Source: Antedon bifida (Eukaryota; Echinodermata; Crinoidea; Comatulida; Antedonidae). From it: DNA of 64,000 nucleotides. Both the position numbers and the translations under genes were made by a program. The stretch spans positions 8,804,001-8,868,000 of the forward strand of contig OY727097.1 in the NCBI GenBank assembly GCA_963402885.1, given 5' to 3'. Shown piece by piece: positions 12,931 to 50,075 of this stretch; within the stretch, counting starts at the first letter, position 1; each line of letters opens with the position of its first letter. The notes beneath the pieces were generated by a model that saw nothing but the letters and a program-made list of their open reading frames with translations, had not been told where the DNA came from and searched no databases.

Positions 12931-13091
12931 CAGTTCTTTCCAAATGTTATTTCTGTAATGTGGCCAATTTGGAAAGAAAACAAAATTTCCAGTCTGAAGT
13001 CGGAGATGCTACCTCATCGTGGTAGACTGGTGTCAACATCATTGGTATCAAATTAAAAATGGTACCAAGGATGGCTAACAGCATCACGCTT
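12931..13091 (+). other. Conserved block, unit 1: predicted 3' UTR exon
   Basis: First of nine almost invariant copies. Elements in order: a hairpin TTCTTTCCAAAT/AATTTGGAAAGAA (intact in most copies; one arm altered here), acceptor TTTCCAG, then TCTGAAG. Joined to exon 4 this reads CTC TGA, an immediate stop. A let-7 8-mer site CTACCTCA follows at 13009-13016. Further potential stems are CCAGT...CTACC/GGTAGACTGG and CATCATTGGTATC/GGTACCAAGGATG. A weak AATAAG lies about 55 bases downstream. Alternative: an independent structured RNA gene. Confidence 0.55.
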
Positions 13092-14594
13092 CCCAAAGCA
13101 CACGCTCGCGTTTAATTTACTCTTAGTAGCTTGAACGTTGCAACTTAATAAGTAGAGTTTATGTTTGAACTTCCTCGCACACAGAAAGCTACTAAAAAAC
13201 CTGTTAAATTCTACTGGAAAGAACGATAATTCGTATATCATAAAATAGAAACTGGGTTCGAAGTAACAAAACAGTTCAGAGGTTAATACAAGTACGTACG
13301 TAAGCACAACGCAGGCGATTGCACAAACTTCGAAGAATCCATCGCTCTAACTATATTTAGCACAAAAAAATAATTCTTCTACATAAGATTTAGTCTCCGG
13401 AAAAATTGTGTGTTTTAATGCTGTGTGTGATTTAGGCTAATTTCACTACAAATTCAAATTCAAATTCTTTAATACATCAAAACAAATTTGATAAAATTAC
13501 TTTGCCTTAAAGACCTATCGTAGTAATATTTTTTGTAAAATAAGAGATTACATTTACTTATATTATTATTAAATCTAGAGAATTCAAGACAAAATTATTA
13601 CTACAAGCATGTGTATGCGAGTTTAGCGTAATGGTTGTGTAACCACCCTTTCAACTCACAATAGCTTCAGCTGACTAACAATAGAACAGCAACGTGAAAA
13701 ACAAACGAGTGAATTTGAAAAGAAATAGGTTTTTTAAACTACTCGCATCAAAAAACGTGTACATTAAATCTAATTGTGTTTTAAAATTACAAACCACAAA
13801 TTATATTTCTTGCCTCTTCAACAAAAATGCAGTTTTTTGGACAAGTAGCTCTCGAGAAAATACAATTTTAGTTCACTTGTTACTTTAAGAATGCTCACCG
13901 GCTTTTGAAATTCTTTCTTATCTTTTAACACTAGCAGGTCTGAAAATAATTCTAAATAAGTGGTCCAGAGTTAGGACCGTGGTCCGGATTGCCTCCAAAA
14001 TTGGGCAGTATCGTCCTTGCACCAGGCGACATGTATGGTAGTAATTTGGAGTCATTCGAATCAAAATTGTGAGCGCTAGAGTGATGACAAACAAACACAC
14101 ACACAAACCGCACCGACCAACATACCGTACTTGGCCAATTTTCAATTTGGCCAAGTAACAAATATACAAACTAGCCATCGCGCCTTGGCCAAATCCAAGT
14201 TGACCTCCTGACCTTGACCCGATTTTCACCAAAAGTGTGTGTCTTAATGCTGTGTGATTTAGGCTAATTTTACTACAATCATGTGTATGCGAGTTTGGTG
14301 TAAAGGTTATGTGACCAGCCTTTCAACTAACAATAGCTTCAGTCGACAAACAATAGAACAGCAACGCGAAAAACACACACGGGTGAAATTGAAAAGAAAT
14401 AGGCTTATTGTTCCGCGCGGTTGCCTGGTGAACGGTTCAGCTAAACTATGACCATAATTATGCAAATTTGGTTTCCGGGTGAAATTTTCTTCAGTTTAAC
14501 AGTTATCGTTTGTATAGTATAGATTCTAACTGAACTTTCATACAGATTTTTTTGTAAATTTATCCTGTAATATACAATTAACCACATTTTCATA
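13092..14594. other. Repeat-rich gap with a 129-bp direct duplication; no gene seen
   Basis: Segments 13601-13729 and 14273-14402 are direct copies (CTACAA..CATGTGTATGCGAG ... GAAAAGAAATAGG), each preceded by a GTGATTTAGGCTAATTT segment (near 13430 and 14260). The first copy is separated from that segment by about 150 bp that begins with (AAATTC)n and looks like a LINE 3' tail. Between the copies, 13960-14230 holds unclassified repeat sequence. Two copies of one element, or the ends of one larger element, are both possible. Confidence 0.5.
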
Positions 14595-15110
14595 ATGGCT
14601 CGTGCAAAAAGTGCTGCACAAAGACGAAAAGAGCAGAAACTGAAACAACGAGAGATCCGTGCCTGTCAATCTCAAGAGAAGTTAGAAGAAACTCGCAAAA
14701 AATCTAGGGAAAGAATGGCTCTAAAACGAAAGGCTGAAACACAGGACGAAAGAAATTTGAGGATCAAAAAGGCGAAATTAATTATGGAAACAAATTGGGC
14801 AAAGGAGACTGAGGAAAAAACTAAGAAAAGGCTTGATGGAGACAAACGTGCAGTGGCCGAAAGACGTAAACATGAGACTGGGAACCAGACTAAGGAAAGA
14901 CTTGAGAGAGAAAAACGTGGTATACTTGGTGATTTCAATGAAAATTTACTCAATGAGAAACAGTCCTCATTAACAGAGTTCATGGAGCGGAATGGCTTTA
15001 AGCAGTATGTGTGCAGTGCGACAACTGATGGCGGATCTTTGTTGGATCATATTTACTTTAACAGACATGATAGTAATTTGAATGGTACTGTTCAGATTCA
15101 TGTGCTGATG
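14595..15110 (+). mobile_element. Helitron-like ORF remnant (basic N-terminus plus endonuclease motif), 5' part
   Basis: Starts MARAKSAAQRRKEQKLKQRE. It has several diverged basic ET.DERNLRIKKAK / ETEEKTKKRLDGDKRA / ETGNQTKERLEREKR repeats, as seen at the N-terminus of invertebrate Helitron proteins, then GDFNE, TDGGSLLDHIYF. The segment 19267-19320 after the inserted LTR element continues with DVYYSDHDTVFLSTNCL and a stop, completing an APE-endonuclease-like SDHD end. The two halves are one base out of frame, so the ORF was already broken. No Rep or helicase domain is present; it is a deletion derivative. The Helitron/Helentron assignment is from memory of similar proteins. Confidence 0.5.
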
Positions 15111-15243
15111 TATTACAAGTGTGACTCGTCAACACGGTTCTTTTAATTCAACTGTTTTATTACTTCACCGAGCGTAACGTAGTTTGCATAATTAGCAAAT
15201 AACAAACAAAGATAATTAGCATATTAACATAACATATGTGACA
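15111..15243 (-). repeat. LTR of the Gypsy element (left in window)
   Basis: 133 bp, reading TGTCACATATG at its minus-strand start. It matches the right copy base for base by eye. Confidence 0.8.
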
Positions 15244-15364
15244 TCTTCCCTTTTCTAACAAAATAAATTTCTAAAGTTTTTTTAAAAAATTAATATCAAA
15301 AGTGACTTAGACACGATATATCACATTTCTCATAAATAAATAATCTTTACTTTTCCTTAAACAT

Positions 15365-15492: not shown

Positions 15493-18400
15493 ATACATTA
15501 TAGGATGGTTTGAAAATAAACATGATATCTGCAAAATAAACATAAAATGAAGTTAATTATTGATACATTTATTTATAATCCAATCGATCAGGTGGACGAC
15601 TAACACGATCACTTCTACGTAAGGGTGGTGCTTCTGGTACCTTCTGCAAAGTTGGTACGCCCTTCTGCAAAGTATCCGGTTGTTGAGTGTTTAATAAATG
15701 TTGTCGATTCCGTCTGTACGACGTTCCATCTTCGGTCATCACTACATATGAACGGGGTAGCTCATGTTGCTTATCCACAACAGCAGGTTCCCATTGCCGT
15801 CCTTTCAATATTCTCACGTTGTCCCCTTTTCTTAATTTCGTCAATACACGTGTACCACGATCATAATATTTTGTCATAGATTGTTGACGTGACTGAAGGC
15901 AATCTCTAGCTCCGACAATAACTTGTGGTTGCAGCAATGTATGTGTAACTGGAAGTGTTGACCTTAACTTTCTGCTCATCAACAACTGAGCAGGAGAACA
16001 ATTCAACCCTGCAATTGGTGAATCACGATAGTCTAGTAGAGCAAGATGAAAATCACTTCCCTCATCAACGGACTTCCTCATGAGTTGCTTAATGGTTTGG
16101 ACGAAACGTTCAACTTGCCCATTACTTCTGGCATATGTCGGACTGGACGTCACTAAATCGAACCCCCACTGGTTAGCAAACTGTTTGAACTCGTAGCTAG
16201 CGAACGGCATGTTATCAGTCATTAATGTTTCAGGGATGCCATGTCTTGAGAATATAGATTTTAATTTTTTGATGATCGCTCCAGCCGTTTTGCTGGTAAG
16301 TGTAACTACTTCAGGGTATTTGGAAAAATAGTCGACTACAATAAGATGATCTCTGCCAGCGAATGTAAATATATCCGCGCCCAGCTTAGCCCATGGTCTC
16401 ATAGGAACTTTATGTGGAATCATCGGCTCCCGTTGATTTCTACGCATAAACTTTACACAAACAGGGCATCTTGACACTGCTGATTCTATATCGTTGGTCA
16501 TACCTGGCCAATACATAATAGACCTGGCCCTCGCCTTACACTTCTCCATCCCAAGGTGACTTTCATGAATTTTATTCAGCATATCTGCTCTCAATTGGCT
16601 AGGAACAATCAACTTCTCACCTAAAAACACAAGACCATCAATTTCATGTATCTCATCACGAAGATGCCAATACTGCCTAACTTGCTCCGGTGCACTCCAT
16701 CTATGTTTAGGCCACCCGTTTTTGCATGTTAGGATTAGAGTTTGGAGTACCACATCTGCCTGTGTAGCTCGTATCGCTTCTTCAATTCTTGCTTTACTCA
16801 TGGGCAATATTTCGTCTAGACTATGCACCCTATATTTCAACTGTTCAAGGGGTTGGGCATCACGATCAACCTTATCAGGATATGCTCTGCTGAGAGCATC
16901 AGCTATGTACATGTACTTTCCAGGAACATACTTAACATCAAGTTCATACTTTATCAATTTGAGCAGCATTTGTTGTATTCTAGGACTAGCTTTATGAAGT
17001 GGTTTACGTGTGATCGTTTCGAGTGGTTTATGGTCAGTGTGAACTTCAACAGCTCGGCCATATACATATTGGTGGTATTTGTGTATAGAAAAGCAGATCG
17101 CCAACATCTCCTTCTCGATTTGTGAGTAATTAACTTCAGCTGATGTTAACGACCTAGAGGCAAACGCAACCGGATGACCCTCTTGAAGCAAACAGCTTCC
17201 GAGCCCTGTGGATGATGCATCACATTGAATAATGGTTGGTTTCTGTGGATCAAAGAAACTTAAGACTGGTTTGCTACTAATCAACGCCTTTAACTGCCTC
17301 AGGGATTCTGCTTGTTCTGGACCCCAAAACCATGCAACATCTTTCTTGAGCAATTCCCGGAGAGGCGCACTCACATTGGACATATTAGGTATGAATTGTG
17401 AGAGATAATTAAGCATTCCCATTATACGTTGTAAGTCAGATTTACATTGTGGGTCGGGCATTTCTTTGATAACTCTAACCTTTTCTTCGTCTGGTTTCTG
17501 TCCATCGGCACTCACCACGTTTCCCATGAACACCAATTCAGACTGTTTATACTTGAGCTTGCTTCCATTGAATTTGGCATTGTTCGCTCTGGCCGTATCC
17601 ATCACCCTCTGTATTGTTGCATTATGCTCTGCTTCACTACCTGTAGCTATAATCATATCATCAGATATTATGTGTACATTAGGTATATGACCAAATATTT
17701 GCTGGTTTCGTTTCTGTAACACCTCACTAGCACTGCAGATACCAAATGGCATTCTTAGAAAACTGTATCGTCCAAAGGGAGTATTGAATGTACATATATC
17801 TGCGCTAGCGTCAGTAAGAGGAACTTGCCAGTACGCATCTTTCTGGTCAAAGACAGTGAAAAGTGTTTTACCTGACAGGTGACTCACTACGTCCTTACCG
17901 GTCGGTATCATATGATGTTCACGTCTAATGGCCTTGTTCAAATCACGTGGATCCAAACACAACCTCAAGGATCCGTCTCGTTTCTCCACTATCACTAGGC
18001 TGTTGACCCAATCTGTTGGTTTGTCTGTCCGCTTAATCACACCCCTCTTCTCCATATCGTCAAGTTTCTCTTTCAGCTTGGTATGCAGACTAAGTGGCAC
18101 CCTGCGGGGTGGATGGACTACTGGAGAAACACTACTTTTCAACTTGATGTCATAAGGATCTTGATATTTACCTAAACCTGTAAATACATCACGATTCTCT
18201 CGAATCAAAGAATCTTTAGTTAGTGCATGTACATATTTATTATTTATCACATTATCACTACACATCATATTGTTACCACGTTTGATCAGACCAAGCTCCC
18301 TACATGCTTTCAATCCAAGTATGGGTGCACCATCAACATTAGTAATAAAGAAGTCATAATCATTTTGGATGTTATCAACTTTTACATTTAGAGTAACTTT

Positions 18401-19133
18401 ACCAATATGTTTTACAATTTCATCACTATAACTATATAGGTTAGTTTTAGAATGATATACTTTAATGTTCTTACGTCCTGGTAATTTTCTAAATGTTTCC
18501 AGTGGTATGCAGTTAACACCAGCTCCTGTGTCAAGTTTCATCTTTAACACATTACCTCCCACAAACACATCATAGAACCAAGCGTTCTTGTCATTGTTAT
18601 CTCTTAGAGTGTCTATATAAAAGTACTCATTTTTATCTTCAACAGTTAAAGTGTCAATGTATAAGTCATTAGGATCACTTACACCTTCGGCAACAATATA
18701 CTGCTCATCCATTGTATGTACAGCTCTGCCACGTCCACGACCGCGTCCTCGGGAAAAACGTTTGGTGCACACAGATTGAAAATGATTCAAACCCTTACAC
18801 CCGTAGCATGTTTTACCATAAGCTGGACACTGACGAGGTAGATGTGAAGAACCGCACCTGCTACATTTAATTTTGGCTGCATCTGTAAACTGATGATTCT
18901 GTTGACCACTAACCCTTGGCTTATGTTTATGGAATTTGGTTTTTCTCAATGCATGAACCTTCGGCTTATGTTTAAGGAAAAGTAAAGATTATTTATTTAT
19001 GAGAAATGTGATATATCGTGTCTAAGTCACTTTTGATATTAATTCCATATTACAAGTGTGACTCGTCAACACGGTTCTTTTAATTCAACCGTGGGAATGG
19101 GAACGGGAATGGGAATGGCCACTTCTGACACCA

Positions 19134-19601: not shown

Positions 19602-20033
19602 GTAAGTAGTTTAATACAGTAGGTTTACTTACATGTCGAGGTGTAATATCAGTTGCTACTTAAACTAAACGTAACTAAACTTAACTATAACACCCTGTGA
19701 TCGTAAGTATACATTACGCGAGTATTAGATCTGCTGGTAAAGCACTGCCTTTCGTATAGGTATACATTATCATCAGCCATGACTACATAATAGCAAGGTA
19801 ATCAAACCCTATAAGCAACTTTTGTTTATACAGTACAGAAGGAGACTAAAGTACAGTATACATGATATTAAAAGTTAGTTTTTTTTATTATATAGTCCTA
19901 TTTCAAGATTATTGATTAATCGCATATATTATAATTGTTTACTGATTTTGAATTTTACTTAATGTAAACATTAATTATAAACTTTTTTTAACTATTTAAA
20001 AATGATCACATTTCATCGCAAAAATAGGCCTAA

Positions 20034-20200
20034 CAGTTCTTTCCAAATATTATTTCAATAATTTGGCCAATTTGGAAATTAAAGAAAACAAAATTTCCAG
20101 TCTGAAGTCGGAGATGCTACCTCATCGTGGTAGACTGGTGTCAACATCATTGGTATCAAATTAAAAATGGTACCAAGGATGGCTAACAGCATCACGCTTA
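20034..20200 (+). other. Conserved block, unit 1b
   Basis: From TCTGAAG to ATCACGCTTA it carries the same sequence as the other copies, including CTACCTCA, although the gene in front is truncated. Several extra bases lie in the first hairpin arm. Confidence 0.55.
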
Positions 20201-20410
20201 ACCCCAAAGCACAGGCTAGCTTAAACGTTGTTAAAATGTTTGAACTTTCTCACACACAGAAAGCTAATAAAAACTTGTTTTGTCTGAAAGGGCGATAATT
20301 CTTATATCATAAAATATAACGTTTAGAATGATTCGAAGTAACAAAACGTTCCAGAACTTACTACTAGACACAACTTTGAAGTGCAGTGAACAATAGTATT
20401 TTAAATTACA

Positions 20411-22143: not shown

Positions 22144-22604
22144 GTAAGTAGTTTGATACAGTAGGTTTACTTACATGTCGAGGTGCAATATCAGTTGCTA
22201 CTTAAACTAAACGTAACTAAACTTAACTATAACACCCCTGTGATCGTAAGTATACATTACGCGAGTATTAGATCTGCTGGTAAAGCACTGCCTTTCTAGG
22301 TATAGGTATAAATTATCATCAGCCATGACTACAAACCCTGTAAGCAACTTTTGTTTATACAGTACATAAGGAGACCCACTACACTGTGATAGTTATAATA
22401 GGCATGCGAGTATAGATCTGCTGATACAGTACAGTATACGTATATAGTAAAAGTTAGTTTTTATTTATAGTCCTATCTGAAGACTATTGAAATAATCGCA
22501 TATTTTAGAATTGTTTACTGATTTCTAATTTTACTTACTGTAAAAATAAAGTAACTTTTATTTGATTTCAATGATCATATTCAAAATCGCAAAAATAGGC
22601 TTAA

Positions 22605-22766
22605 CAGTTCTTTCCAAATATTAGTTCACTAATTTGGCCAATTTGGAAAGAAAACAAAATTTCCAGTCTGAAGTCGGAGATGCTACCTCATCGTGGTAGA
22701 CTGGTGTCAACATCATTGGTATCAAATTAATAATGGTACCAAGGATGGCTAACAGCATCACGCTTA
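22605..22766 (+). other. Conserved block, unit 2
   Basis: All block elements are intact, with both arms of the first hairpin perfect. An AATAAA signal follows at 22809-22814, about 40 bases after the block, supporting its use as a transcript 3' end. Confidence 0.6.
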
Positions 22767-23239: not shown

Positions 23240-23241
23240 TT

Positions 23242-23629: not shown

Positions 23630-23639
23630 TCACGAATGT

Positions 23640-24630: not shown

Positions 24631-27124
24631 ATGATCGGAAGTAACAAGATAAAGTTGAAGAACGTCTTAAAAGGCACAACTACTTCAAAAGGTAGTGAAC
24701 AATATCTTAAATTACAAATTTTATTTTACAATTTTTGTAAGCCACCACTGGCCAAATCGATTCACAAGCACCACCATTCTAGGCCTACTGCGCTTCTTCG
24801 GGTAAGCACCCACACTTACCACCCGCCTCAAACCCAAACATAAGTCCCGTAAATATACCATTAAAAAAAATACATAGGCTTAACCTAATACGTAACATGT
24901 GTATGATTATTATTATTTTCAAAATTGAGAGTTATTTTATTAGGCCTACTGCCACCAATGGCCTAGGACTAGGTAGGCCTAGGTCAGGACTAGCGTAACC
25001 TAGCCATGGCCTATCTATACTTATATTGTTTTTTATCCATTCGTAAGTTTGGAAGACACATCGGCCCACCAAAGTATATCAATTTTTAAAATTGCGATTT
25101 ATTTTGGCATTGTCATTGATTATACATTCGTAAATTTAGACGAACAATTTCCGGCCACCCAGCAGAGTTAGTTTGTCTTAAATAATCTAGGCCTAGCCTA
25201 ATTAGCCTAGGCATAGTCTAAAATATTTAGGCTTAGCGTAGGGCTTATTCATTTTGTCAATAATGTTATCAATTCAAATGTTTTTAGAACACATATACGG
25301 ATATCCATCATAGTGATGAAAAGTGTTCTGTCTTTCCTAATCTAATATACATTAAATAGTCTAGGCCTAAACATTTAATGTTTGACATGTGACAGATTCT
25401 GGAGAATTCCGTGATGTTCGTTTAACGACTGATGGAAAGTCACATCCCAATAATGCCCTCAACAGAAAGAAGCGAAAATGGCGAAATTTAGAACCATTAA
25501 CATCAGACATAAGTTCCCGTAAAGGTCCAATCAAGATCAAACGACCATGGCGGGAAATCAACATTGAAAATGAACTGAGAAATTCCACAACTAACCAGAA
25601 CGTGAGTAATTTTTATCAAAAAATTCTAAGAATAATATAAGGTAGACTGTAATGTTCGATATCTTTCTTTCGGTTTGCTTATAGTTTGTAATAACTTCTT
25701 TAATTTATGTGGTAATGTTGTATGCCTAATCTATAATATTTTAAAGATTATTTTTAGATGGAAAAAAACATAAAACGTCAATTTAGTACGGTCAATTATT
25801 TATTAAGGTTTTTTCTATTTGAACCTATTTTAATTCTAGACAAATGAGTCGATAACTCATGCTGTTGAAGAAACATTGAAAATGTACCGCGCAGCTTCTT
25901 ACAATATTGACTTTACACAACTATCTGGCGGTAAGTTGCAACATAGAGTATAGCCAACTGATTTCTGTCTATCAATATACAAAGTAGGCCTACCATTATT
26001 CTTATTGCCTAAATACAATCAGCCATATATTAGCCATAACTTTGATGGCGCCTTATATTGGCATTGTTTCTTTTCAAATCATGGCAATTTAGGATATTTA
26101 TTTTGCAGCACTTATCCTATCTCGAATACAATTTCGTCTCCTATGTAATTTTGGTCTGTTTGTATTTAAACTGTGTTTATTTTAGATATCCCCGAGAAGA
26201 AGCCGAATGTTGTCTACAGCAACGGAAGTGATACCAATTCATGTCCCTCCTTTCGTTCACCAGCTAAGAGTCTTTATGATGGTAACAATGTGAATGTAAA
26301 AAAAGATAATATATTAATTACAAATATAGTTCATCTTACTTTTTATTACAGATCTTTATCACCACTCTCCCGAGCTTCGCGTTGCAAGAAACGATATGAT
26401 AGAACCATCCACTCCATCCAGAAGTCGAAGAAATGTTTTAAGACTAACTCACCGTACTGGAGCTGGCTAAGACATCATGTGGCTGGTATCAAACCAAACA
26501 AAAAGTTGATACGACGTACGTTGTTGAGTACTATTAAAGACAGTGCTAAGTTTAATGTTGGGATGGCTGGTAAGTATGCATCTCCTCACTGCAAGTTCGA
26601 ACCCCAAGAGGTAGGTATTGGAATTTATAGCATTAATACGCTCGGTAATGATAACAGTGTTAGGCCAACGGTTTCTAGTAGTCATATCAGGAAAGCCAAG
26701 CGGATATGTTTTAGCATTCACGACACACCAGAGCTACCATCAGTAGATGACATACTTGATGCTGATCGGAGTTGCCGAAGAAAGGTGCCACTGCGTAACA
26801 CAGGTAAGAGCTGCAATAGAAGCTGCAATTCCACACTGATGTCAACACTCCTACATAGCTCTAAACGAGTGTGTTTCAGCATTCATGGCACACCAGAGCT
26901 ACCGTCAGTAGATGACATGCTTGATGCTGATCGGAGTTGCCGAAGAAAAGTGCCACTGCGTAACACAGGTGAGAGCTTTTGTACCATCATAACGTCAATG
27001 CTCATACATAGCTGTACAAGGCGATCTAAACGAGTGTGTTTTAACATTCACGATGCACCAGAGCTACCTTCAGTTGCAGAAATGCTTGATGCTGCTCGGA
27101 GTTGCAGGAGAAAGGTTCCATTGC
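24631..27124 (+). CDS. Array unit 3: RVxF-repeat protein gene
   Basis: Exons: 1, 24631-24801; 2, 25396-25601; 3, 25840-25930; 4, 26186-27124. Exons 2-4 join in frame (phase 0, then phase 1) and encode about 412 residues. Exon 4 has the basic N-terminal module (RSLSPLSRASRCKKRYDRTIHSIQKS) and three repeats: KRICFSIHDTPELPSV, KRVCFSIHGTPELPSV and KRVCFNIHDAPELPSV. All three keep the RVxF-type R-[VI]-C-F core. Spacers between repeats differ (GKSCNRSCNSTLMSTLLHSS versus GESFCTIITSMLIHSCTRRS). Nearly identical to unit 4 over about 4.7 kb including introns, so one is a recent copy of the other. Function unknown. Confidence 0.7.
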
Positions 27125-27519
27125 GTAAGTAGTTAGAGTAGGTTTACTTACCTGTCGAGGTGTAATATCGGTTGCTACCTAAACTAAACTTAACTATAAC
27201 ACCCTGTGATCGTAAGTATACATTACGCGAGTATTAGATCTGCTGGTATAAATTATCATCAGCCATGACTACATAATAGCAAGGTAATCAAACCCTGTAA
27301 GCAACTTTTGTTTATACAGTACAGAAGGAGACTAAAGTACAGTATACATGATATTAAAAGTTAGTTTTATTTATTATATAGTCCTATTTCAAGATTATTG
27401 ATTAATCGCATATTTTATAATTGTTTACTGATTTTGAATTTTACTTAATGTAAACATTAATAATAAACTTTTTTTAACTATTTAAAAATGATCACATTTC
27501 ATCGCAAAAATAGGCCTAA

Positions 27520-27681
27520 CAGTTCTTTACAAATATTATTTCAATAATTTGGCCAATTTGGAAAGAAAACAAAATTTACAGTCTGAAGTCGGAGATGCTA
27601 CCTCATCGTGGTAGACTGGTGTCAACATCATTGGTATCAAATTAATAATGGTACCAAGGATGGCTAACAGCATCACGCTTA
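27520..27681 (+). other. Conserved block, unit 3
   Basis: Here the acceptor reads AATTTACAG instead of AATTTCCAG, a change that keeps the splice signal. AATAAA follows at 27722-27727. Confidence 0.6.
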
Positions 27682-28368: not shown

Positions 28369-29367
28369 TCACGAATGTTTGCCTTGAATCTCATCACTGA
28401 AAGTACACTTAAATGTTCAACAACAAACAAAATAAGTTGAGCATTATGCGTGTTGCTCTCCTGTGAATAATATCAATAATAATGTCATATTAACGACGGA
28501 AGCTATAACAAAAAACAATAGCACAATTTCAATATGAGTAAGAAATGTAATTTTCAATGTTATGTTGTGTTATATATTTGACAATAAAGTTTTCTTTTAT
28601 CTTGAAATTCTGTCAAATTAAGGAGGTACTTAAGCTGTCTATAAAGTTTGAAAGTTTAGTAGTAGACAGAACTTAGTACGGTACTACAAGACACAACTAC
28701 TTTCAAGTGCAGTGAATAATATACCTTTGTCTTAAAGATCTACCGTAGTAATAGTTTGTATTATTTTAAGAGAATATAGTTTATTTATCTTGTTCTTAAA
28801 TCGAAAGAATTCAAGACAAATCAATAGGCCTGATTAATAAAACCGTTTTTATTTATTTAGCTTTCGTCATTTCTGCCTTGAATATGATTATTGAAAAGAA
28901 AATTGTTCAACGACAAAAAAGTTAAGCATTTGTTTAACACGGGTTGCTCTATGAATCGAATACAATCAATTTAATGTAATATAATGTCATATTAATGACG
29001 CAGGTTAAAACAAATAAACAATAGCGCAATATAAGTGAGAAATGTCAATTTCAAATGTGTTATAATTTGACAATAAAGTTATCTTTTATCTTGAAATCCT
29101 GTTAAATTTAGGAGGTGCTTAATCTCTGCCTGAAGTTTGGATAGTATAGACAAATCTTTAGATAAGAAAGCGCGCTTAATTACCATAGCAATAACGCGTA
29201 CTACAACGCGTAAATAATGCATTGTGACGTTTATTCGATATCTATGGTAGCGTAGAACAAACAGACGCCATTTCTGTTTGATATTTCTCACAGAAAGCTC
29301 CTTTCAAAAAACGCTCTTAAATTATTTGAAAAAATATCGATACATTCTTAATATCATACTAAGAACT

Positions 29368-31823
29368 ATGATCGGAAGTAACAAGATAAAGTTGAAGAAC
29401 GTCTTAAAAGGCACAACTACTTCAAAAGGTAGTGAACAATATCTTAAATTACAAATTTTATTTTACAATTTTTGTAAGCCACCACTGGCCAAATCGATTC
29501 ACAAGCACCACCATTCTAGGCCTACTGCGCTTCTTCGGGTAAGCACCCACACTTACCACCCGCCTCAAACCCAAACATAAGTCCCGTAAATATACCATTA
29601 AAAAAAATACATAGGCTTAACCTCATACGTAACATGTGTATGATTATTATTATTTTCAAAATTGAGAGTTATTTTATTAGGCCTACTGCCACCAATGGCC
29701 TAGGACTAGGTAGGCCTAGGTCAGGACTAGCGTAACCTAGCCATGGCCTATCTATACTTATATTGTTTTTTTATCCATTCGTAAGTTTGGAAGACACATC
29801 GGCCCACCAAAGTATATCAATTTTTAAAATTGCGATTTATTTTGGCATTGTCATTGATTATACATTCGTAAATTTAGACGAACAATTTCCGGCCACCCAG
29901 CAGAGTTAGTTTGTCTTAAATAATCTAGGCCTAGCCTAATTAGCCTAGGCATAGTCTAAAATATTTAGGCTTAGCGTAGGGCTTATTCATTTTGTCAATA
30001 ATGTTATCAATTCAAAAGTTTTTAGAACACATATACGGATATCCATCATAGTGATGAAAAGTGTTCTGTCTTTCCTAATCTAATATACATTAAATAGCCT
30101 AGGCCTAAACATTTAATGTTTGACATGTGACAGATTCTGGAGAATTCCGTGATGTTCGTTTAACGACTGATGGAAAGTCACATGCCAATAATGCCCTCAA
30201 CAGAAAGAAGCGAAAATGGCGAAATTTAGAACCATTAACATCAGACATAAGTTCCCGTAAAGGTCCAATCAAGATCAAACGACCATGGCGGGAAATCAAC
30301 ATTGAAAATGAACTGAGAAATTCCACAACTAACCAGAACGTGAGTAATTTTTATCAAAAAATTCTAAGAATAATATAAGGTAGACTGTAATGTTCGATAT
30401 CTTTCTTTCGGTTTGCTTATAGTTTGTAATAACTTCTTTAATTTATTTATTGTATGCCTAATCTATAATATTTTAAAGATTATTTTTAGATGGAAAAAAA
30501 CATAAAACGTCAATTTAGTACGGTCAATCATTTATTAAGGTTTTTTCTATTTGAACCTATTTTAATTCTAGACAAATGAGTCGATAACTCATGTTGTTGA
30601 AGAAACATTGAAAATGTACCGCGCAGCTTCTTACAATATTGACTTTACACAACTATCTGGCGGTAAGTTGCAACATAGAGTATAGCCAACTGATTTCTGT
30701 CTATCAATATACAAAGTAGGCCTACCATTATTCTTATTGCCTAAATACAATCAGCCATATATTAGCCATAACTTTGATGGCGCCTTATATTGGCATTGTT
30801 TCTTTTCAAATCATGGCAATTTAGGATATTTATTTTGCAGCACTTATCCTATCTCGAATACAATTTCGTCTCCTATGTAATTTTGGTCTGTTTGTATTTA
30901 AATTGTGTTTATTTTAGATATCCCCGAGAAGAAGCCGAATGTTGTCTACAGCAACGGAAGTGATACCAATTCATGTCCCTCCTTTCATTCACCAGCTAAG
31001 AGTCTTTATGATGGTAACAATTTAAATGTAAAAAAAGATAATATATTAATTACAAATATAGTTCATCTTACTTTTTATTACAGATCTTTATCACCACTCT
31101 CCCGAGCTTCGCGTTGCAAGAAACGATATGATAGAACCATCCACTCCATTCAGAAGTCGAGGAAATGTTTTAAAACTAACTCACCGTACTGGAGCTGGCT
31201 AAGACACCATGTGGCTGGTATCAAACCAAACAAAAAGTTGATACGACGTACGTTGTTGAGTAGTATTAAAGACAGTGCTAAGTTTAATGTTGGGATGGTT
31301 GGTAAGTATACATTTCCTCACTGCAAGTTGGAAACCAAAGAGGTAGGTTTTGAAATTGATAGCATTGATAAGCTCTGTAATAACAGTGTTAGGCCAACGA
31401 TTTATAGTAGTCATATCAGGAAAGCTAAGCGGATGTGTTTTAACATTCACGACGCACCAGAGCTACCGTCAGTAGATGACATGCTTGATGCTGATCGGAG
31501 TTGTATGAGAAAAGTGCCACTGCGTAACACAGGTGAGAGCTTTAGTACCATCATAACGCCAATGCCCATACGATGTAAACGAGTGTGTCTTAACATTCAC
31601 GACACACCAGAGCTACCATCAGTTGAAGTAATGCTCGATGCTGATCGGAGTTGCAGGAGAAAAGTGCCACTACGTAACACAGGTGAGAGCTTTAGTACCA
31701 TCATAACGCCAATGCCCATACGATGTAAACGAGTGTGTCTTAACATTCACGACATACCAGAGCTACCATCAGTTGAAGTAATGCTCGATGCTGATCGGAG
31801 TTGCAGGAGAAAAGTTCCATTGC
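29368..31823 (+). CDS. Array unit 4: RVxF-repeat protein gene
   Basis: Exons: 1, 29368-29538; 2, 30134-30339; 3, 30572-30662; 4, 30918-31823. Its 5' half is almost identical to unit 3, offset 4737 bp. The end of exon 4 instead resembles unit 6: VGKYTFPHCKLETKEVGFEIDSIDK, then KRMCFNIHDAPELPSV and two nearly identical repeats KRVCLNIHDTPELPSV and KRVCLNIHDIPELPSV. Those last two have Leu in place of the Phe of the RVxF core. The switch in similarity along one exon suggests gene conversion or unequal crossover within the repeat region. About 400 residues from exons 2-4. Confidence 0.7.
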
Positions 31824-32448: not shown

Positions 32449-32702
32449 ACCCCAAAGCACAGGCTCGCGTTTACCCTCTATAGTAGCTTGAACTTTGCAA
32501 ATTATTTAATAAACACAATTTATGTTTTAACTTTCTCGCACACAGAAAGCTACTAAAAACTTCTTTTGTTGGAAATAGTGATAATTATTAGATCATAAAA
32601 TATGATTTTTAGAATGATTCGAATTAACAAAAGACACAACTCCTTTAAAGTGCAGTGAACAATAGTATTTTAAATTACACAGGACGCAACTTGGACGTAA
32701 TG

Positions 32703-37653: not shown

Positions 37654-38080
37654 GTAAGTAGTTTGATAAAGTAGGTTTACTTACATGTCCAGGTGTAATA
37701 TCAGTTGCTACTTAAACTAAACGTAACTAAACTTAACTATAACACCCTGTGATCGTAAGTATACATTACGCGAGTATTAAATCTGCTGGTAAAGCACTGC
37801 CTTTCTAGGTATAGGTCTAATTAATGATCAGCCATGACTACATAATAGCAAGGCAATCAAATCCTGTAAGCAACTTTTGTTGATACAGTACAGAAGGAGA
37901 CTAAAGTACAGTATACGTATATTAAAAGTTAGTGTTTTTTTTATTATAAATAGTCCTATTCAAGATTATTGATTAATCGCATATATTATAATTGTTTACT
38001 GATTTTGAATTTTACTTAATGTAAACATTAATTATAAACTATTTAAAAATGATCACATTTCATCGAAAAAATAGGCCTAA

Positions 38081-38241
38081 CAGTTCTTTCCAAATATTAT
38101 TTCAATAATTTGGCCAATTTGGAAAGAAAACAAAATTTCCAGTCTGAAGTCGGAGATGCTACCTCATCGTGGTAGACTGGTGTCAACATCATTGGTATCA
38201 AATTAACAATGGTACCAAGGATGGCTAACAGCATCACGCTT
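38081..38241 (+). other. Conserved block, unit 5
   Basis: Matches the consensus including hairpins and the let-7 site, except ATTAACAATGG in the last loop. AATAAA at 38283-38288. Confidence 0.6.
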
Positions 38242-39932: not shown

Positions 39933-42416
39933 ATGATCGGAAGTAACAAGATAAAGTTGAAGAACGTCTTAAAAGGCACAACTACTTCAAAAGGTAGTGA
40001 ACAATATCTTAAATTTCACATTTTATTTACAATTTTTGTAAGCCACCACTGGCCAAATCGATTCACACGCACACCACCACCATTCTAGACCTATTGCGCT
40101 TATTTGGGTAAGCACCCACACCGCCTCAAACCCAAACATAAGTCCCGTAAATATACCATTTAAAAAAAAATACATTGGCTTAACCTCATACATGTATGAT
40201 TATTATTATTTTCAAAATTGAGATTTATTTTAGCAGGCCTACTGCCAAAAAATAAATGGCCTAGCTAGTAGGGCTAGGACTAGGCCTAGGCTAGGCCTAG
40301 CCTCCCTAGGCTAGACTAGGTAGGTCAGGACTAGCCTAACCTAGTCCTAGCCATGGCCTATCTATACTCATATTGGTTTTTATCCATTCGTAAGTTTGGA
40401 AGACACATCGGCCCACAGTATATACATTTTTAAAATTACGATTTATTTTGACATTGTCATTGATTATGCATTCGTAAATTAACACGAACAAGTTTCCGGC
40501 CACCCAGCAGAGTCTTTTCTTAAATAATCTAGGCCTAGCCTAATTAGCCTAGGCATATGCTAATAATAAATAAAATATTTAGGCATAGCCTAGGGCTTAA
40601 TAATTTTGTCATTAATGTTATCAATTTGAAAGTTTTAAGAACACAAATCCGGATATCCATCATAGTGATGAAAAGTGTTCTGTCTTTCCTAATTTAATAC
40701 ATTAAGTAACCTAGGCTAAAACATTTAACGTATGACAGATTCTGGAGAATTCCGTGATGTTCGTTCAACGACTGATGGAAAGTCTCATGCCAATAATGCC
40801 CTCGACAGTAGGAAGCGAAAATGGCGAAAGTCAGAGCCATTAACATCAGACATAAGTTTCCGTAAAGGTCCAATCAAGATCAAACGACCATGGCGGAAAA
40901 TCAACACTAAAAATGAACTGAGAAGTTCCACAACTAACCAGAACGTGAGTAATATTTAGCATTGCAAGGTTCACAATCGAAACAATTCTAAAATAATGTA
41001 GACTGTTAATGATTATTTTCTTGCATTTTCGTATAGTTTGTAATATTTATAATTTATGATGTGTTCATGTTTTATGCCTAATCTATAATATTTTAAAGAT
41101 TATTTTTAAATCATAATTAAGGTTGTTCCTATTTGAACCTTTTTTAATTAGACAAATGAATCGATAACTCATGTTGTTGAAGAAACATTAAAGATGTACC
41201 GCGCAGCTTCTTACAATATTGACTTTACACAACTCTCTGGCGGTAAGTTGCAACATAGAGTCTAGCAAACTGAATTCTGTCTATCAATATACAAAGTAGG
41301 CCTACCATTATTCTTATTGCCCAAATACAATCAGCCCTATATTAGCCATAACTTCGATGGCGCCTTTAATATATTGGCATTGTTTTCTTTTCAAATCATG
41401 GCAATTTAGGATACAGTATTTGAGTTGCAGCACCCATCCAATCTCGAATACAATTTCGTCTCCCATGTAACTTTGGCCTGTTTGTATTTAAATTGTGTTT
41501 ATTTTAGGTATCCATGAGAAGAAGCCGAATGTTGTCCACAGCAACGGAAGTGATACCAATCTGTGTGCATCCTCTCGTTCACCAGCTAAGAGTCTTTATG
41601 ATGGTAACAATTTGAATGTAAAAAAAGATAATATAATAATTACAAATATAGTTCATCTTACTTTTTATTACAGATCTTTATCGCCACTCTCCCGAGCTTC
41701 GCGTTGCAAGAAACGATATGATAGAACCATCCACTCCATTCAGAAGTCGAAGAAATGTTTAAAGACTAACTCACCGTACTGGAGCTGGCTAAGACACCAT
41801 GTGGCTGGTATCAAACCAAGCAGAAAGTTGATACGACGTACGTTGTTTAGTAGTATTAAAGACAGTGCTAAATTTAATGTTGGGGTGGCGGGTAAGTATG
41901 CATCTCCTCACTGTAAGTCGGAGACCAAGGAGGTAGGTTTTGAAATTGATAGCATTGATAAGCTCGGTAATGATAACAGTGTTAGGCTAACGATTTATAG
42001 TAGTCATATCAGGAAAGCCAAGCGGATGTGTTTTAACATTCACGACGCACCAGAGCTACCGTCAGTAGATGACATGCTTGATGCTGATCGGAGTTGTATG
42101 AGAAAAGTGCCACTGCGTAACACAGGTGAGAGCTTTAGTACCATCATAACGCCAATGCCCATACGATGTAAACGAGTGTGTCTTAACATTTACGACACAC
42201 CAGAGCTACCATCAGTTGAAGAAATGCTCGATGCCGATCGGAGTTGCCGAAGAAAGGTGCCACTGCATAACACAGGTGAGAGCTTTAGTACCATCATAAC
42301 GCCAATGCCCATACGATGTAAACGAGTGTGTCTTAACATTCACGACACACCAGAGCTGCCATCAGTTGAAGAAATGCTCGATGCTGATCGGAGTTGCAAG
42401 AGAAAGGTTCCATTGC
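39933..42416 (+). CDS. Array unit 6: RVxF-repeat protein gene
   Basis: Exons: 1, 39933-40107; 2, 40739-40944; 3, 41152-41242; 4, 41508-42416. Exon 1 has a lost base plus other indels relative to units 1 and 3-5, which argues that its distal part is not under coding constraint. Exon 2 is preceded here by an in-frame ATG (MTDSGEF), but that ATG lies in the presumed splice acceptor. Exon 4 carries three repeats: KRMCFNIHDAPELPSV, then KRVCLNIYDTPELPSV and KRVCLNIHDTPELPSV, the last two with Leu at the RVxF phenylalanine position. About 402 residues from exons 2-4. Basic module intact (SRKLIRRTLFSSIKDSAKFNVG). Confidence 0.7.
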
Positions 42417-42840
42417 GTAAGTAGTTTGATAAAGTAGGTTTACTTACATGTCCAGGTGTAATATCAGTTGCTACTTAAACTAAACGTAACTCACCCTGTG
42501 ATGTATACATTACGCGAGTATTAGATCTGCTGGTAAAGCACTCTCTCTCTAGGTATAGGTATAAATTATCATCAGCCATGACTACATAATAGCGAGGTAA
42601 TCAAACCCTGTAAGCAACTTTTGTTTTTACAGTACAGAAGGAGACTAAAGTACTGTATACGTATATTAAAAGTTAGTTTTTTTATATTATATAGTCCTAT
42701 TTCAAGATTATTGATTAATCGCATATATTATAATTGTTGTTGTTATAACTGATTTTGAATTTTACTTAATGTAAACATTAATTATAAACTTTTTTTAACT
42801 ATTTAAAAATGATCACATTTCATCGCAAAAATAGGCCTAA

Positions 42841-43001
42841 CAGTTCTTTCCAAATATTATTTCAATAATTTGGCCAATTTGGAAAGAAAACAAAATTTCC
42901 AGTCTGAAGTCGGAGATGCTACCTCATCGTGGTAGACTGGTGTCAACATCATTGGTATCAAATTAATAATGGTACCAAGGATGGCTAACAGCATCACGCT
43001 T
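42841..43001 (+). other. Conserved block, unit 6
   Basis: Consensus sequence over the exon-like part. AATAAA follows in AATTATTTAATAAACACAATT, about 60 bases downstream. Confidence 0.6.
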
Positions 43002-45940: not shown

Positions 45941-48550
45941 ATGATCGGAAGTTACCAGATAAAGTTGAAGAACGTATTAAAAGGCACAACTACTTCAAAA
46001 GGTAGTGAACAATATCTTAAATTACAAATTTTATGTTTTACGTTTTTGCAAGCCACCACTGGCCAAATCGATTCACACGCACCACCACTCTAATGCGCTT
46101 CTTTGGGTAACCACCCACACTTACCACCCGCCTCAACCCTGAACATAAGTCCCGTAAATATACCATTTAATCAAAATACATTGGCTTAACCTCATACGTA
46201 ACATGTGTATGATTATTATTATTTCAAAATTGAGATTTATTTTAGTAGGCCTACTGCCAATAATGGCCTAGGACTACGTAGGTCAGGACAAGCCTAGTCT
46301 AGCCATGGCCTATCTATACTTAGGCTATATTGTTTTTTATCCATTCGAAAGTTTGGAAGACACATCGGCTCACGAAAGTATATACATTTTTAAAATTGCG
46401 ATTTATTTTAACATTGTCATTGATTATATATTCTTAAATTTAGACGAACAATTTCCGGCCACCCAGCAGAGTATAGTCTTTTCTTAAATAATCTAGGCCT
46501 AGCCTAATCAGCCTAGTCATAGACTAAATAGCCTAGGGCTTAATTATTTTGTCATTAATGTTGTTATCAATTCGAGAGTTTTAAGAACACAAATCCGGAT
46601 ATCCATCATAGTGATGAAGTGTTCTGTCTTTCCTAATTGAATACATTAAGTAACTTAGGCTAAAACATTTAACGTATGACATGTGACAGATTCTGGAGAA
46701 TTCCGTGATGTTCGTTCAACGACTGATGGAAAGTCTCATGCCAATAATGCCCTCAACAGTAGGAAGCGAAAATGGCGAAAGTCAGAGCCATTAACATCAG
46801 ACATACGTTCCCGCAAAGGTCCAATCAAGATCAAACGACCATGGCGGGAAATCAACATTACAGATGAACTGAGAAGTTCAACAACTAAACTGAACGTGAG
46901 TAATATTTAGCACTGTACAAGGTTTAATACAATCGAAACAATTCTAAAATAAGGTAGACTGTTAATGTTAGATTATTTTATGTGTTAAACTGAGTTTTAA
47001 CCTTTTTTTTAAAGATAATTATTTAAATAGAAAATAAACATAAATGTAAATTTAGTACGGTCAATCATTTTATTAATGTTGTTCCTATTTGAACCTTTTT
47101 TATTTCTAGACAAATGAATCGATAACTCATGTTGTTGAAGAAACATTAAAAATGTACCGCGCAGCTTCTTACAATATTGAATATGCACAACTCTCTGACA
47201 GTAAGTTACAGTAGACTACCAAGTAGGCCTACTAATTTCTTTTCAGTCATTGCTTAGGCCATAAATACAACCAGACCTTTATTTCGGTGGCACCATACAA
47301 AAGCATTGTTTCTTTATGAATCATGTAAATTTAGGATATTTGTTCTGCAGCTCCAATATCGAATAACATGTTGTCCCTCAATGTGTAACTTTGGCTTGTT
47401 AAAAAGTCATAACTGTGTGTTAATATGTTTATTTTAGGTATCCATGACGAGAAGCCGAATGTTGTCTACAGCGACGGAAGTGATAGCAATTCATGTGCAT
47501 CCTCTCGTTCGCCAGCTAAGAGTCTTTATGGTGGTAACAATTTGAATTTAAAAAAAGATATAATAATTACAAATATAGTTCATCTTACTTTTTTTTACAG
47601 ATCTTTATCGCCACTCTCCCGAGCTTCGCGTTGCAAGAAACGCTACGATAGGACCATCCACTCCATCCAGAAGTCGAGGAAATGTTTTAAGACTAACTCA
47701 CCGTACTGGAGCTGGTTGAGACATCATGTGGCTGGTATCAAACCAAACAAAAAGTTGATGCGACGGACGTTGTTGAATAGTATTAAAGACAGTGCTAAGT
47801 TTAATGTTGGGATGGCTGGTAAGTATGCATCTCCTCACTGCAAGTTAAAACCCCAAGAGGTAGGTATTGAAATTGATAGCATTGATAAGCTAGGTAATGA
47901 TAAGAGTGTTAGGCCAACGATTTATAGTAGTCATATCAGGAAAGCCAAGCGGATATGTTTTAACATTCACGACGCACCAGAGCTACCATCAGTAGATGAC
48001 ATACTTGATGCTGATCGCAGTTGCAAGAGAAAAGTGTCACTGCGGAGAAGTAAGAGGTCCAATGAAAGCTGCTGTAGTATCATCATGATGCATTGCTCTA
48101 CTATGCCACACAAACGAGTCTGTTTTAACATTCACGACGCACCAGAGCTACCATCAGTAGATGACATACTTGATGCTGATCGCAGTTGCAAGAGAAAAGT
48201 GTCACTGCGGAGAAGTAAGAGGTCCAATGAAAGCTGCTGTAGTATTATCATGATGCATTGCTCTACTATGCCACACAAACGAGTCTGTTTTAACATTCAC
48301 GACGCACCAGAGCTACCATCAGTAGATGACATACTTGATGCTGATCGGAGTTGCAAGAGAAAAGTGTCACTGCGGAGAAGTAAGAGGTCCAATGAAAGCT
48401 GCTGTAGTACCATCATGATGCCACCGCTCATGCATTGCTCTACTACACCACATAAACGAGTGTGTCTTAACATTCACGATGCACCAGAGCTACCATCAGT
48501 TGAAGAAATGATCGATGCTGATCGGAGTTGCAGGAGAAAGGTTCCATTGC
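45941..48550 (+). CDS. Array unit 7: RVxF-repeat protein gene, longest form
   Basis: Exons: 1, 45941-46106 (donor weakened to GTAACC and an internal indel); 2, 46690-46895; 3, 47110-47200; 4, 47438-48550. Exon 4 encodes four repeats. The first three are nearly identical 55-residue units (period 165 bp, starting 47971, 48136 and 48301): RICFNIHDAPELPSV, then twice RVCFNIHDAPELPSV, each followed by SLRRSKRSNESCCS and HCSTMPHK-type spacers. The fourth is RVCLNIHDAPELPSV. The spacer class (SKRSNESC) is otherwise seen only in unit 1. About 470 residues from exons 2-4. The 3' flank also matches the sequence after exon 4 of unit 1, so units 1 and 7 keep an ancestral arrangement. Confidence 0.7.
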
Positions 48551-49698
48551 GTAAGTAGGAGGAAAACATTTAAAACTAATACATTTTAATACTAGGCCCC
48601 TATTATAAATAAATTGTTTATTATAATTTAATTGTATGTACCGTATTTTTATAGCCTGTAGGCCCTATTCTAAATAATGCTCAATGTATCTTAATTTTAA
48701 TTCAATTTTTGCTAGCACGTATATATTTAATTTTATATTGGAATCTAAGAGGATCCCTGATTATGAACTGGATTTATTTTGCCCAGCTGGAATAAGGGTT
48801 ACCCTCTTTAAATACAGTTGAACAGTAAAATAAATAAAATAAAGATGGTAAAAATATAGTTCAACTGATAAAGTGTAAAAAGTAAAAGTTTCACAAATAT
48901 TTTTAACTGCAAATAATAACTTGGAAAGAGACAGTGTCTACCAATATTAACTAGTGACGAGTTTTGTCTATTGAATTATATAATTATTGTATATTACTTT
49001 ATAATAGAATAAAATCTAAAATGGAACAACATTTATAGGAATAGTTATACATTTTAAGAAAACAAAATCTCATTTCCATATAATGATAAAAGAAATGTTC
49101 TCAAGATTAGTTGAATAGAAAAAAGTTTAAATTGATAATTGATCTTTCTTTTTCTTATGATTTTATTTATGTTTTTTTAGGGATCTTACGAGACAAGTAT
49201 TTTTACTTTTAATTTGATTCCTTTTGATGATAAACAAATTAGTCTGTATAATTTACGTTTAAATCGTTTAAATGTACGAATTTACCTTTTTTGTTATTCT
49301 ATTGCTATTTTTAATAAACGTTGTATGAAATGAAATATATTTCCATTAAATACATTTTACTAAATGTAGGCCTAATAATAAAACAAATACCGTATGTGTG
49401 ACACGGCGAGACCAAAACAAACCAAAGGTTATTCACCCCTTATTCTCCCTACTGATGGACAGTTAAAATCTGTACCACATTCCCGGTTAATTTTCAAAGA
49501 AGTCAACCAGGATATGGTACGGCCGTATACCATTAATTCGTCGTACTTCCTGTCAACTTATGTTGGTCATCGACATGGCATTACATAGGCCTAAATTCAA
49601 AATTATTGTCAAATTGGTATCACGCTAATTAATAATACAAATAGGCCTAATAATTGTTTTACTTTTTATATTAAAAAGTATTTTAATACAACCAATAA
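48551..49698. other. 3' flank of unit 7; no separate gene seen
   Basis: 48551-48790 is homologous to 11970-12240 of unit 1 (AATACTAGGCCC ATATTATAAATAAATTG, GCTAGCACGTAT). The rest is AT-rich. A short frame at 49394-49588 has no splice boundaries or motif support. If unit 7 uses the blocks below as its last exon, this is its last intron. Confidence 0.4.
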
Positions 49699-49861
49699 CA
49701 GTTCTTTCCAAATTATTATTTTACTAATTTGGCCAATTTGGAAAGAAAACAAAATTTCCAGTCTGAAGTCGGAGATGCTACCTCATCGTGGTAGACTGGT
49801 ATCAACATCATTGGTATCAAATTAATAATGGTACCAAGGATGGCTAACAGCATCACGCTTA
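49699..49861 (+). other. Conserved block, unit 7, copy a
   Basis: One substitution in the exon-like part (GGTATCAAC for GGTGTCAAC). Followed at once by a second copy. Confidence 0.6.
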
Positions 49862-49913
49862 GCCCCAAAGCACAGGCTAGCTTGATCACATTTCATCGAA
49901 AAAATAGGCCTAA

Positions 49914-50075
49914 CAGTTCTTTCCAAATATTATTTCACTAATTTGGCCAATTTGGAAAGAAAACAAAATTTCCAGTCTGAAGTCGGAGATGCTACCTCAT
50001 CGTGGTAGACTGGTGTCAACATCATTGGTATCAAATTAATAATGGTACCAAGGATGGCTAACAGCATCACGCTTA
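49914..50075 (+). other. Conserved block, unit 7, copy b
   Basis: Tandem second copy, starting with the TTGATCACATTTCATCG.AAAAATAGGCC lead-in seen in other units. The exon-like part is consensus. No AATAAA close downstream. With this copy the array has one more block than gene units. Confidence 0.6.

Follow-up and report, generated by a model that had tools for sequence, protein, structure and literature searches.

The window (the whole 64,000-nucleotide stretch of Antedon bifida DNA analyzed) contains an array of protein-coding gene units, each trailed by a near-invariant block of 163-168 bp. Nine copies of this block were present, all on the + strand (Table 1). A search for a 22-nt core of the block, allowing up to three mismatches, yielded nine matches, each with 0 mismatches, and none in 100 shuffles. 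Together with the alignment of the copies, this search bore out the sequence-only reading that one almost unchanging block follows each unit. The part from TCTGAAG to ATCACGCTT, described there as near-identical, showed only three variable columns across the nine copies. The blocks had also been said to survive in units with a broken coding part and to be duplicated once more; copies were indeed present at 20.0 and 22.6 kb, in the two units that are incomplete, and a pair was found at 49.7-50.1 kb. The two copies of this pair (8 and 9) stayed conserved although their outer flanks have no homology to those of the other copies, and block-like ends are kept there in DNA that shows no homology to other units. 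The region after copy 9 showed no homology to array units.

Table 1. Positions of the block copies, the predicted ribozyme and its parts, and decayed exon 1 copies in the window.
Feature	Block	Predicted ribozyme or element	Strand	Basis and remarks
Copy 1	12929-13091	12989-13085	+	RF02682 match; strict descriptor; pair count
Copy 2	20032-20199	20097-20193	+	RF02682; strict descriptor; unit retains gene end only
Copy 3	22603-22765	22663-22759	+	RF02682; strict descriptor; unit without exon 1, frame broken
Copy 4	27518-27680	27578-27674	+	RF02682; P1 position 1 C to A, strict descriptor failed
Copy 5	32285-32447	32345-32441	+	RF02682; strict descriptor; one P4 pair C-G to U-G, pairing kept
Copy 6	38079-38241	38139-38235	+	RF02682; strict descriptor
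Copy 7	42839-43001	42899-42995	+	RF02682; strict descriptor
Copy 8	49697-49860	49758-49854	+	RF02682; first of tandem pair; P1.1 G to A, strict and relaxed descriptors failed
Copy 9	49912-50074	49972-50068	+	RF02682; strict descriptor; second of tandem pair
Hairpin 1, copy 1		12934-12978	+	12-bp stem; 3' end 10 nt upstream of predicted cut
P1, copy 1		12989-12995 with 13024-13030		
P2, copy 1		13005-13010 with 13080-13085		
P3, copy 1		13011-13013 with 13021-13023		
P1.1, copy 1		13015-13016 with 13031-13032		
P4, copy 1		13037-13050 with 13060-13073		
J4/2, copy 1		13074-13079		Catalytic C at 13075
Predicted cut, copy 1		between 12988 and 12989		Ribozyme spans P1 start to P2 3' strand
Decayed exon 1 leader and exon 1 copy		32508-32679	+	Starts 61 nt after block 5
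Decayed exon 1 copy		20237-20410		After block 2
Decayed exon 1 copy		13158-13269		After block 1

Decayed copies of exon 1 come after the block in all three of the units tested, scoring 82, 84, and 62 in local alignments; the best of 200 shuffles scored 36, 33, and 33, respectively. AATAAA occurs downstream of the block in 6 of 7 units; it may be no poly(A) signal there, since that of unit 5 sits in the decayed exon 1 leader. In unit 8, seven AATAAA lie between the stop codon and the block. The octamer TAGGCCTA is frequent. A Pfam search of five frames (two of exon 3, one of exon 1, and two others) identified no family at the cutoff. The window holds three LINE reverse-transcriptase frames, and no LINE frame of at least 100 aa starts before 53.6 kb.

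The 3' 97 nt of the block can be read as an entire HDV-like self-cleaving ribozyme. The fold is a nested double pseudoknot that comprises P1 of 7 bp, P2 of 6, P3 of 3, P1.1 of 2, and P4 of 4+9; the catalytic position is taken by a cytosine. The sequence can form each helix of the class in the proper order, with the expected unpaired letters. P1 (CCAGUCU/AGACUGG), the 3' strand of which directly follows P3, forms seven Watson-Crick pairs in 8 of the 9 copies, the first pair being lost in copy 4. The first pseudoknot, P2 (GAUGCU/AGCAUC), is present in all nine, as are P3 (ACC/GGU) and the loop L3 (UCAUCGU). The reverse wobble pair, described as important in the ribozyme (PMC3774820), draws its U and G from L3. 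P1.1 (CA/UG) is intact in eight copies, and copy 8 keeps one of its two pairs. The class calls for a P1 of 6-7 bp, a P2 of at least 5 bp, a P3 of 3 bp, and a P1.1 of one or two pairs that link L3 to the letters following P1. J4/2 (GCUAAC), invariant in the nine copies, places the catalytic C between P4 and P2 and aligns with GGCUAA of the RF02682 consensus. Four other rigidly conserved active-site letters are mentioned for the class (PMC3774820). In the alignment to the RF02682 consensus, as read by eye, the L3 capitals were all matched except the second P1.1 letter, and J1.1/4 has U for G. Standard pairs occupied 384 of 387 pair cells, a share that fell to 32-50% after the partners were slid by 1-3 columns.

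The sequence-only reading had drawn three hairpins in the block. Stems 1 and 3 are present as described. For the second stem, CCAGTCT/AGACTGG plus ACC/GGT is the better reading; the proposed CTACC/GGTAG pairing competes with it. The three-hairpin picture was also incomplete, missing P2 and P1.1, the pseudoknots that identify the class. Judged by structure, the block's conserved part is almost certainly an HDV-like ribozyme, and self-cleavage is predicted with high confidence in at least the seven intact copies.

Covariance-model searches point to the same class. In a low-threshold Rfam search of 291 bases, RF02682 gave a full-length match with an E value of 0.0049, and the eight other matches had E values of 0.78 or worse. 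Across the window, all nine copies matched RF02682 with E values of 1.1-8.1 and 22.3-26.1 bits against a gathering score of 44, which is a curation threshold for one bacterial family and no property of the HDV-like class. Unrelated families had lower E values than RF02682 in the window-wide list (best, 0.012). No family was found in the whole window at the gathering threshold, and RF02682 was the only HDV family in the two low-threshold lists. P2 and P1.1 lie outside the printed RF02682 structure pairs, yet both occur in the block; the simulated chance was 0.0033 for P2 and 0.0007 for both.

A strict descriptor, designed with the block already known, matched 7 of the 9 copies and nothing else in the window on either strand. 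Simulated sequence totaling 55.36 Mb yielded two matches; each relied on G-U pairs in P1, of which the P1 of the block has none. Copies 4 and 8, which failed, are each off by one core letter (in P1 and P1.1, respectively). The relaxed descriptor was unspecific, with 8 of the 9 copies, six other matches on the + strand, five on the - strand, and 13 per control strand (two strands). A tRNA search found none. Exact core patterns were absent from viral and genome contig collections, which cover viruses, bacteria, and archaea and are therefore uninformative on animal homologues, and one block compared with phage sequences gave no match. A spliced-leader or snRNA-like gene, an H/ACA or C/D snoRNA, a microRNA cluster, SECIS, and a hammerhead were considered and dropped on reading of the sequence, with the Rfam searches as their only test.

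The block diverges more slowly than its surroundings. For the seven copies whose flanks are homologous, pairwise differences averaged 2.1% in the block, 18.7% on the left, and 13.6% on the right, and synonymous sites of the array units diverged by 10.8%. A rate equal to that of the neighboring introns, which had been named as evidence against the constraint, was not found. Within the block, the ribozyme differed by a mean of 1.3% across the nine copies versus 5.1% for the 5' part with hairpin 1, where copy 2 also carries a 5-nt insertion. The near-invariance described in the sequence-only reading needs correcting for this 5' part. In 97-nt windows from exon 2 to beyond the block, the 11 lowest of 171 all overlapped the block. 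However, windows in the exon 1 promoter/leader went down to 1.1% over six units, compared with 1.3-1.7% for the ribozyme over nearly the same units. Since this second stretch is equally slow, a slow rate is not unique to the block, and low divergence by itself is no sign of an RNA. Within the unit, the ribozyme core is among the two stretches of lowest divergence; because of the promoter/leader windows, we restrict the claim of the slowest rate to the part from exon 2 on. No covariation was seen within the array; no pair showed a double change, and shuffles equaled every measure in 500 of 500 cases. In a plain RNA fold, variable columns were no different between paired (7/92) and unpaired (4/71) positions (Fisher P 0.76).

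The sequence-only reading gave two possible explanations, RNA constraint and repeated gene conversion. Exchange between units occurs, because the nearest relatives of some units differ to the left and right of the block: on the left, unit 4 differs from unit 7 by 3.8%, and its nearest relatives on the right are units 6 and 2 (4.4% and 5.0%). Frequent conversion or unequal exchange that homogenizes a functionless RNA would also account for the blocks retained in incomplete units 2 and 3 and for the equally low divergence of the promoter/leader stretch. We nevertheless regard this explanation as very unlikely. It does not predict a ribozyme at 1.3% beside an adjoining 5' part at 5.1%, or the conservation of copies 8 and 9 in their unrelated surroundings, and it leaves the complete HDV-like fold unexplained. 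Constraint on an RNA is supported, the RNA can now be named as an HDV-like ribozyme, and conversion between units may have helped. That the block is some other structured RNA or DNA element (a small RNA gene, a microRNA cluster, or a cruciform) with a chance resemblance to the fold is extremely unlikely. The block folds strongly on both strands (z-scores for copy 1 of -3.19 on + and -3.21 on -), and its Rfam scores are under the cutoff, as such an element would allow. However, chance fits were rare in the descriptor and P2/P1.1 simulations, no tRNA or Rfam family was found at the cutoff, and copy 1 has a left flank 25-39% different from those of the other units, which argues against a shared external promoter.

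A further explanation concerns origin. Many HDV-like ribozymes are described as the 5' ends of non-LTR elements (PMC8256844, PMC3774820), and the ribozyme may once have been the 5' end of such a retrotransposon, or of a small derivative with an internal deletion, that inserted a single time into the ancestral unit and was multiplied along with it, possibly still cutting and with no job for the genes. The LINE frames in the window and the block-like ends at 49.7-50.1 kb, amid DNA with no homology to other units, are consistent with this. Nevertheless, the DNA downstream of the block, in the three units tested, is a decayed copy of exon 1 and no element body, and the strict descriptor finds no further ribozyme in the window. 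Moreover, a relic is expected to decay as its flanks do, and the block does not. We consider this origin unlikely.

We favor an HDV-like self-cleaving ribozyme that would cut in cis, in the sense orientation, 3' of each gene unit, and place the probability of this reading at approximately 0.8. The distance from the stop codon to the predicted cut is 446-514 nt in six units; in this position and orientation, the ribozyme should cleave transcripts that extend beyond the gene. RNA extending past the stop codon would fold at the block and cleave itself just 5' of P1. End chemistry of this kind (a 2',3'-cyclic phosphate and a 5'-OH) is established for the HDV-like class. The gene-bearing product would end with the cyclic phosphate 10 nt after hairpin 1, which may protect the new 3' end or assist folding, and the downstream product would start with a 5'-OH on the ribozyme. 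A cut in this 3' untranslated or read-through part would separate the coding region from downstream RNA. The most likely effect for the array genes, at somewhat less than even odds, would be to limit or time polyadenylated mRNA and to keep the transcripts of neighboring units separate. Replication-dependent histone mRNAs have hairpin-capped, non-polyadenylated 3' ends, which are made by another route. A bolder idea, in which the built-in ribozymes make such mRNA ends with one read-through cut per unit and selection on the gene family maintains them, appears quite unlikely. Under this idea, the presence of a decayed exon 1 copy directly downstream of the ribozyme would hint that cleavage formerly defined the 5' end of the following unit's RNA as well.

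HDV-like ribozymes are already known as a class. The literature searched contained no report of one such ribozyme per unit of a protein-coding array. The locus provides a natural series of nine near-identical copies beside intact and incomplete gene copies, including two single-change variants, in which a function in mRNA 3' ends or read-through could be tested directly. RNA-family searches at curated thresholds overlook ribozymes of this sort.

Animal HDV-like ribozymes, described from sea urchin, lancelet, lamprey, and others (PMC8256844, PMC4870747), share the nested double pseudoknot of P1, P2, P3, P1.1, and P4 with a catalytic C, a comparison of fold and not of sequence. The present copies differ from those described in occurring once per protein-coding array unit and in having a conserved hairpin upstream of the predicted cut. 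The R2 retrotransposon ribozyme (PMC3774820) has the same fold and cuts the co-transcript of the tandem 28S rDNA array; however, it is part of a mobile element that has inserted into that array, and no element body was found here in the three units tested. SIDER2 of Leishmania (PMC4035085) presents an HDV-like fold in 3' UTRs, with some tandem pairs, and its copies are proposed to be exapted regulators. In contrast to the array block, they are dispersed retroposons of a protist, and their hallmarks in the 3' UTRs of down-regulated mRNAs are described as having no ribozyme function in vitro (PMC4035085). The mammalian Clec2 hammerhead (PMC6155905) is a self-cleaving ribozyme found in 3' UTRs of gene-family members, where control of polyadenylation was suggested, but differs from the HDV-like block in fold and active-site chemistry. 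The Cpeb3 ribozyme (PMC10919898) is also HDV-like, lies within a gene, and acts in cis on its own transcript. However, it is described as a single intronic copy that tunes splicing, whereas the array block sits 3' of the gene.

The 3' 97 nt of the block that follows the units of the gene array (12989-13085 in copy 1) are very likely an HDV-like ribozyme, as predicted from a fold comprising P1, P2, P3, P1.1 and P4. The Rfam match to the HDV-like ribozyme family RF02682 alone is weak evidence of this identity. In a permissive search with 291 bases, RF02682 was matched at full length with an E value of 0.0049, and the other eight matches had E values of 0.78 or worse. In the search of the whole window, all nine copies matched RF02682 with E values of 1.1-8.1 and scores of 22.3-26.1 bits, short of the gathering score of 44, and some unrelated families reached lower E values (lowest 0.012). 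The structure line of the RF02682 model covers P1, P3 and P4. Two further defining helices were found by eye in the block, namely, P2 (GAUGCU/AGCAUC) and P1.1 (CA/UG). At the base composition of the window, the chance of a 6-bp P2 at that place is 0.0033, and that of P2 together with P1.1 is 0.0007. Furthermore, the block has a P1 of 6-7 bp, a P2 of at least 5 bp, the U and G of L3, and the catalytic C, which are the criteria described for HDV-like ribozymes (PMC3774820).

A strict descriptor covering the complete double pseudoknot was drawn up once the block had been seen. It matched seven of the nine copies and no other site on either strand; in 55.36 million bases of simulated sequence, it matched two sites. 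These two depend on G-U pairs in P1, a pair type absent from the P1 of the block. The two failing copies each differ by one core change: A for C at P1 position 1 in the copy at 27.5 kb, and A for G in P1.1 in that at 49.7 kb. The relaxed descriptor was unspecific.

The sequence-only reading of nine nearly invariant blocks after the array units was borne out: nine copies of 163-168 bp were found, all on the + strand. Its proposal that the block changes more slowly than introns also held, with a mean difference of 2.1% versus 16.1% in intron 2 (seven units) and 5.7% at the start and 11.3% at the end of intron 1 (six units). The adjoining pieces differed by 18.7% and 13.6% in the seven copies with homologous flanks; in another partition of seven units, the values were 13.0% for 100 nt to the left, 10.2% for 100 nt to the right, and 27.8% for 100-300 nt to the right. 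Divergence was 7.3% in exon 2 and 6.4-6.6% in exon 3 (seven units), and 5.1% in the promoter, 4.5% in exon 1, and 6.1% between the stop codon and block (six units). When six units were aligned from exon 2 to beyond the block and scanned with 171 sliding 97-nt windows, the 11 least divergent windows all overlapped the block and the next lay in exon 3. The tandem block pair at the array end (49697-50074) has outer flanks without homology to other units; between its two blocks, a right flank is fused to a left flank.

Standard pairs occupied 384 of 387 pair cells, and 32-50% once the partners were slid by 1-3 columns. Covariation was not found within the array; no pair was doubly changed, and 500 of 500 shuffles matched every measure. 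The evidence for constraint is where the changes fall in the block: the mean difference was 1.3% in the ribozyme versus 5.1% in the 5' part, and the four variable columns of the 97 nt are P1 position 1, P1.1, one P4 pair, and the P4 loop. The P4 variant stays paired as U-G. Because this pair would be lost in an RNA of the opposite strand, it is one weak sign of a sense-strand RNA.

As the sequence-only reading proposed, the block is kept in broken units. The ribozymes of incomplete units 2 and 3 match the strict descriptor. Among matches longer than 300 bp, only the gene end is left in the unit ending at 20.0 kb; in that ending at 22.6 kb, the anchor search did not find exon 1, and exon 3 is split over two frames. 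Possible reasons are recent breakage of the genes, retention of the ribozyme in its own right, or its renewal by exchange between units, which does occur.

The ribozyme has the orientation of the gene; therefore, RNA read past the stop codon would be expected to self-cut there. The predicted cut is directly 5' of P1 (between 12988 and 12989 in copy 1). It lies 446-514 nt past the stop codon in units 2-7, which end at 20.0-42.8 kb, and 1200 nt past it in unit 8. A function of the ribozyme in the array is plausible. We tentatively propose, at somewhat less than even odds, that it cuts read-through or 3' UTR RNA. AATAAA is absent between the stop codon and block in four units, and occurs once in two units and seven times in unit 8. 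Downstream of the block, AATAAA occurs within 42-67 nt in six of the seven units, corresponding to six of the nine copies, and five of these six sites are homologous; 11.8% of window positions have AATAAA within the next 70 nt. This AATAAA is doubtful as a poly(A) signal because, in all three units tested, the block is followed by a second, decayed version of exon 1 and its leader. The alignment scores of these copies were 82, 84, and 62 versus shuffle maxima of 36, 33, and 33; in unit 5, AATAAACA aligned to AACAAACA. Thus, the ribozyme has a gene end on its 5' side and a decayed gene start on its 3' side.

The part from the promoter and leader through exon 1 into the beginning of intron 1 was scanned separately for six units. 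Among its 112 windows of 97 nt, the median divergence was 5.6%, and the lowest value, 1.1% in the promoter/leader, was on a par with the 1.3-1.7% of the ribozyme in almost the same set of units. Therefore, very slow change marks two parts of the array, one being the promoter/leader and the other the ribozyme. All six units checked carry the X-box-like TACCATAGCAATAAC, followed 43 nt or nearly so downstream by TGTGACGTTT; we presume these elements to be RFX and CRE motifs.

The window is eukaryotic and probably animal, judging from its G+C content of 33.7%, its exons and introns, several retrotransposons, and the choline transporter-like coding exon at 52417-52638. The tandem array of the uncharacterised gene spans about 8-50 kb. 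Exon 1 anchors were present in six units, and exon 2 and exon 3 anchors in seven. In the exon 3 stretch common to seven units, pooled pN was 0.051 and pS 0.108 (ratio 0.47; 21 non-independent pairs), which indicates that the array protein has been under some constraint in the past. The tandem coding repeats of exon 3 recur every 150 or 165 bp, at 2.6-3.5 copies depending on the unit. The frame upstream of the LINE contains GDIETNPGP, which resembles a 2A peptide. TAGGCCTA occurs 57 times in the whole window and is the commonest 8-mer composed of at least three different letters.

Coordinates of features in the window
Feature	Position	Strand	Remark
Promoter/leader stretch of array gene	29188-29370, with homologous counterparts in five further units		Lowest 97-nt window 1.1% (six units)
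Decayed exon 1 leader and exon 1 copies	13158-13269, 20237-20410, 32508-32679		After ribozyme block
Exon 3 tandem coding repeats	26707-27128, 31434-31827, 42027-42420, 47956-48539		End of exon 3
Choline transporter-like coding exon	52417-52638	+	Resembles start of high-affinity choline transporter; best of 3 matches E 6.8e-10
LTR retrotransposon long open frame	15569-18988	-	RT, RNase H, integrase domains; in remains of second unit
LINE with endonuclease and RT, and frame upstream of it	3730-4575 and 292-3729	-

HDV-like ribozymes have been reported in the sea urchin, lancelet, lamprey, and others (PMC8256844), with 11-16 descriptor matches listed for the S. purpuratus genome (PMC4870747), and many form the 5' ends of non-LTR elements (PMC3774820). 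In the literature searched, with most subscription journals outside its reach, no report was found of a protein-coding array whose units each have one HDV-like ribozyme. The closest parallels for a ribozyme 3' of a gene are SIDER2 of Leishmania, whose hallmarks in the 3' UTRs of down-regulated mRNAs reportedly had no in vitro activity (PMC4035085), and the Clec2 hammerhead (PMC6155905).
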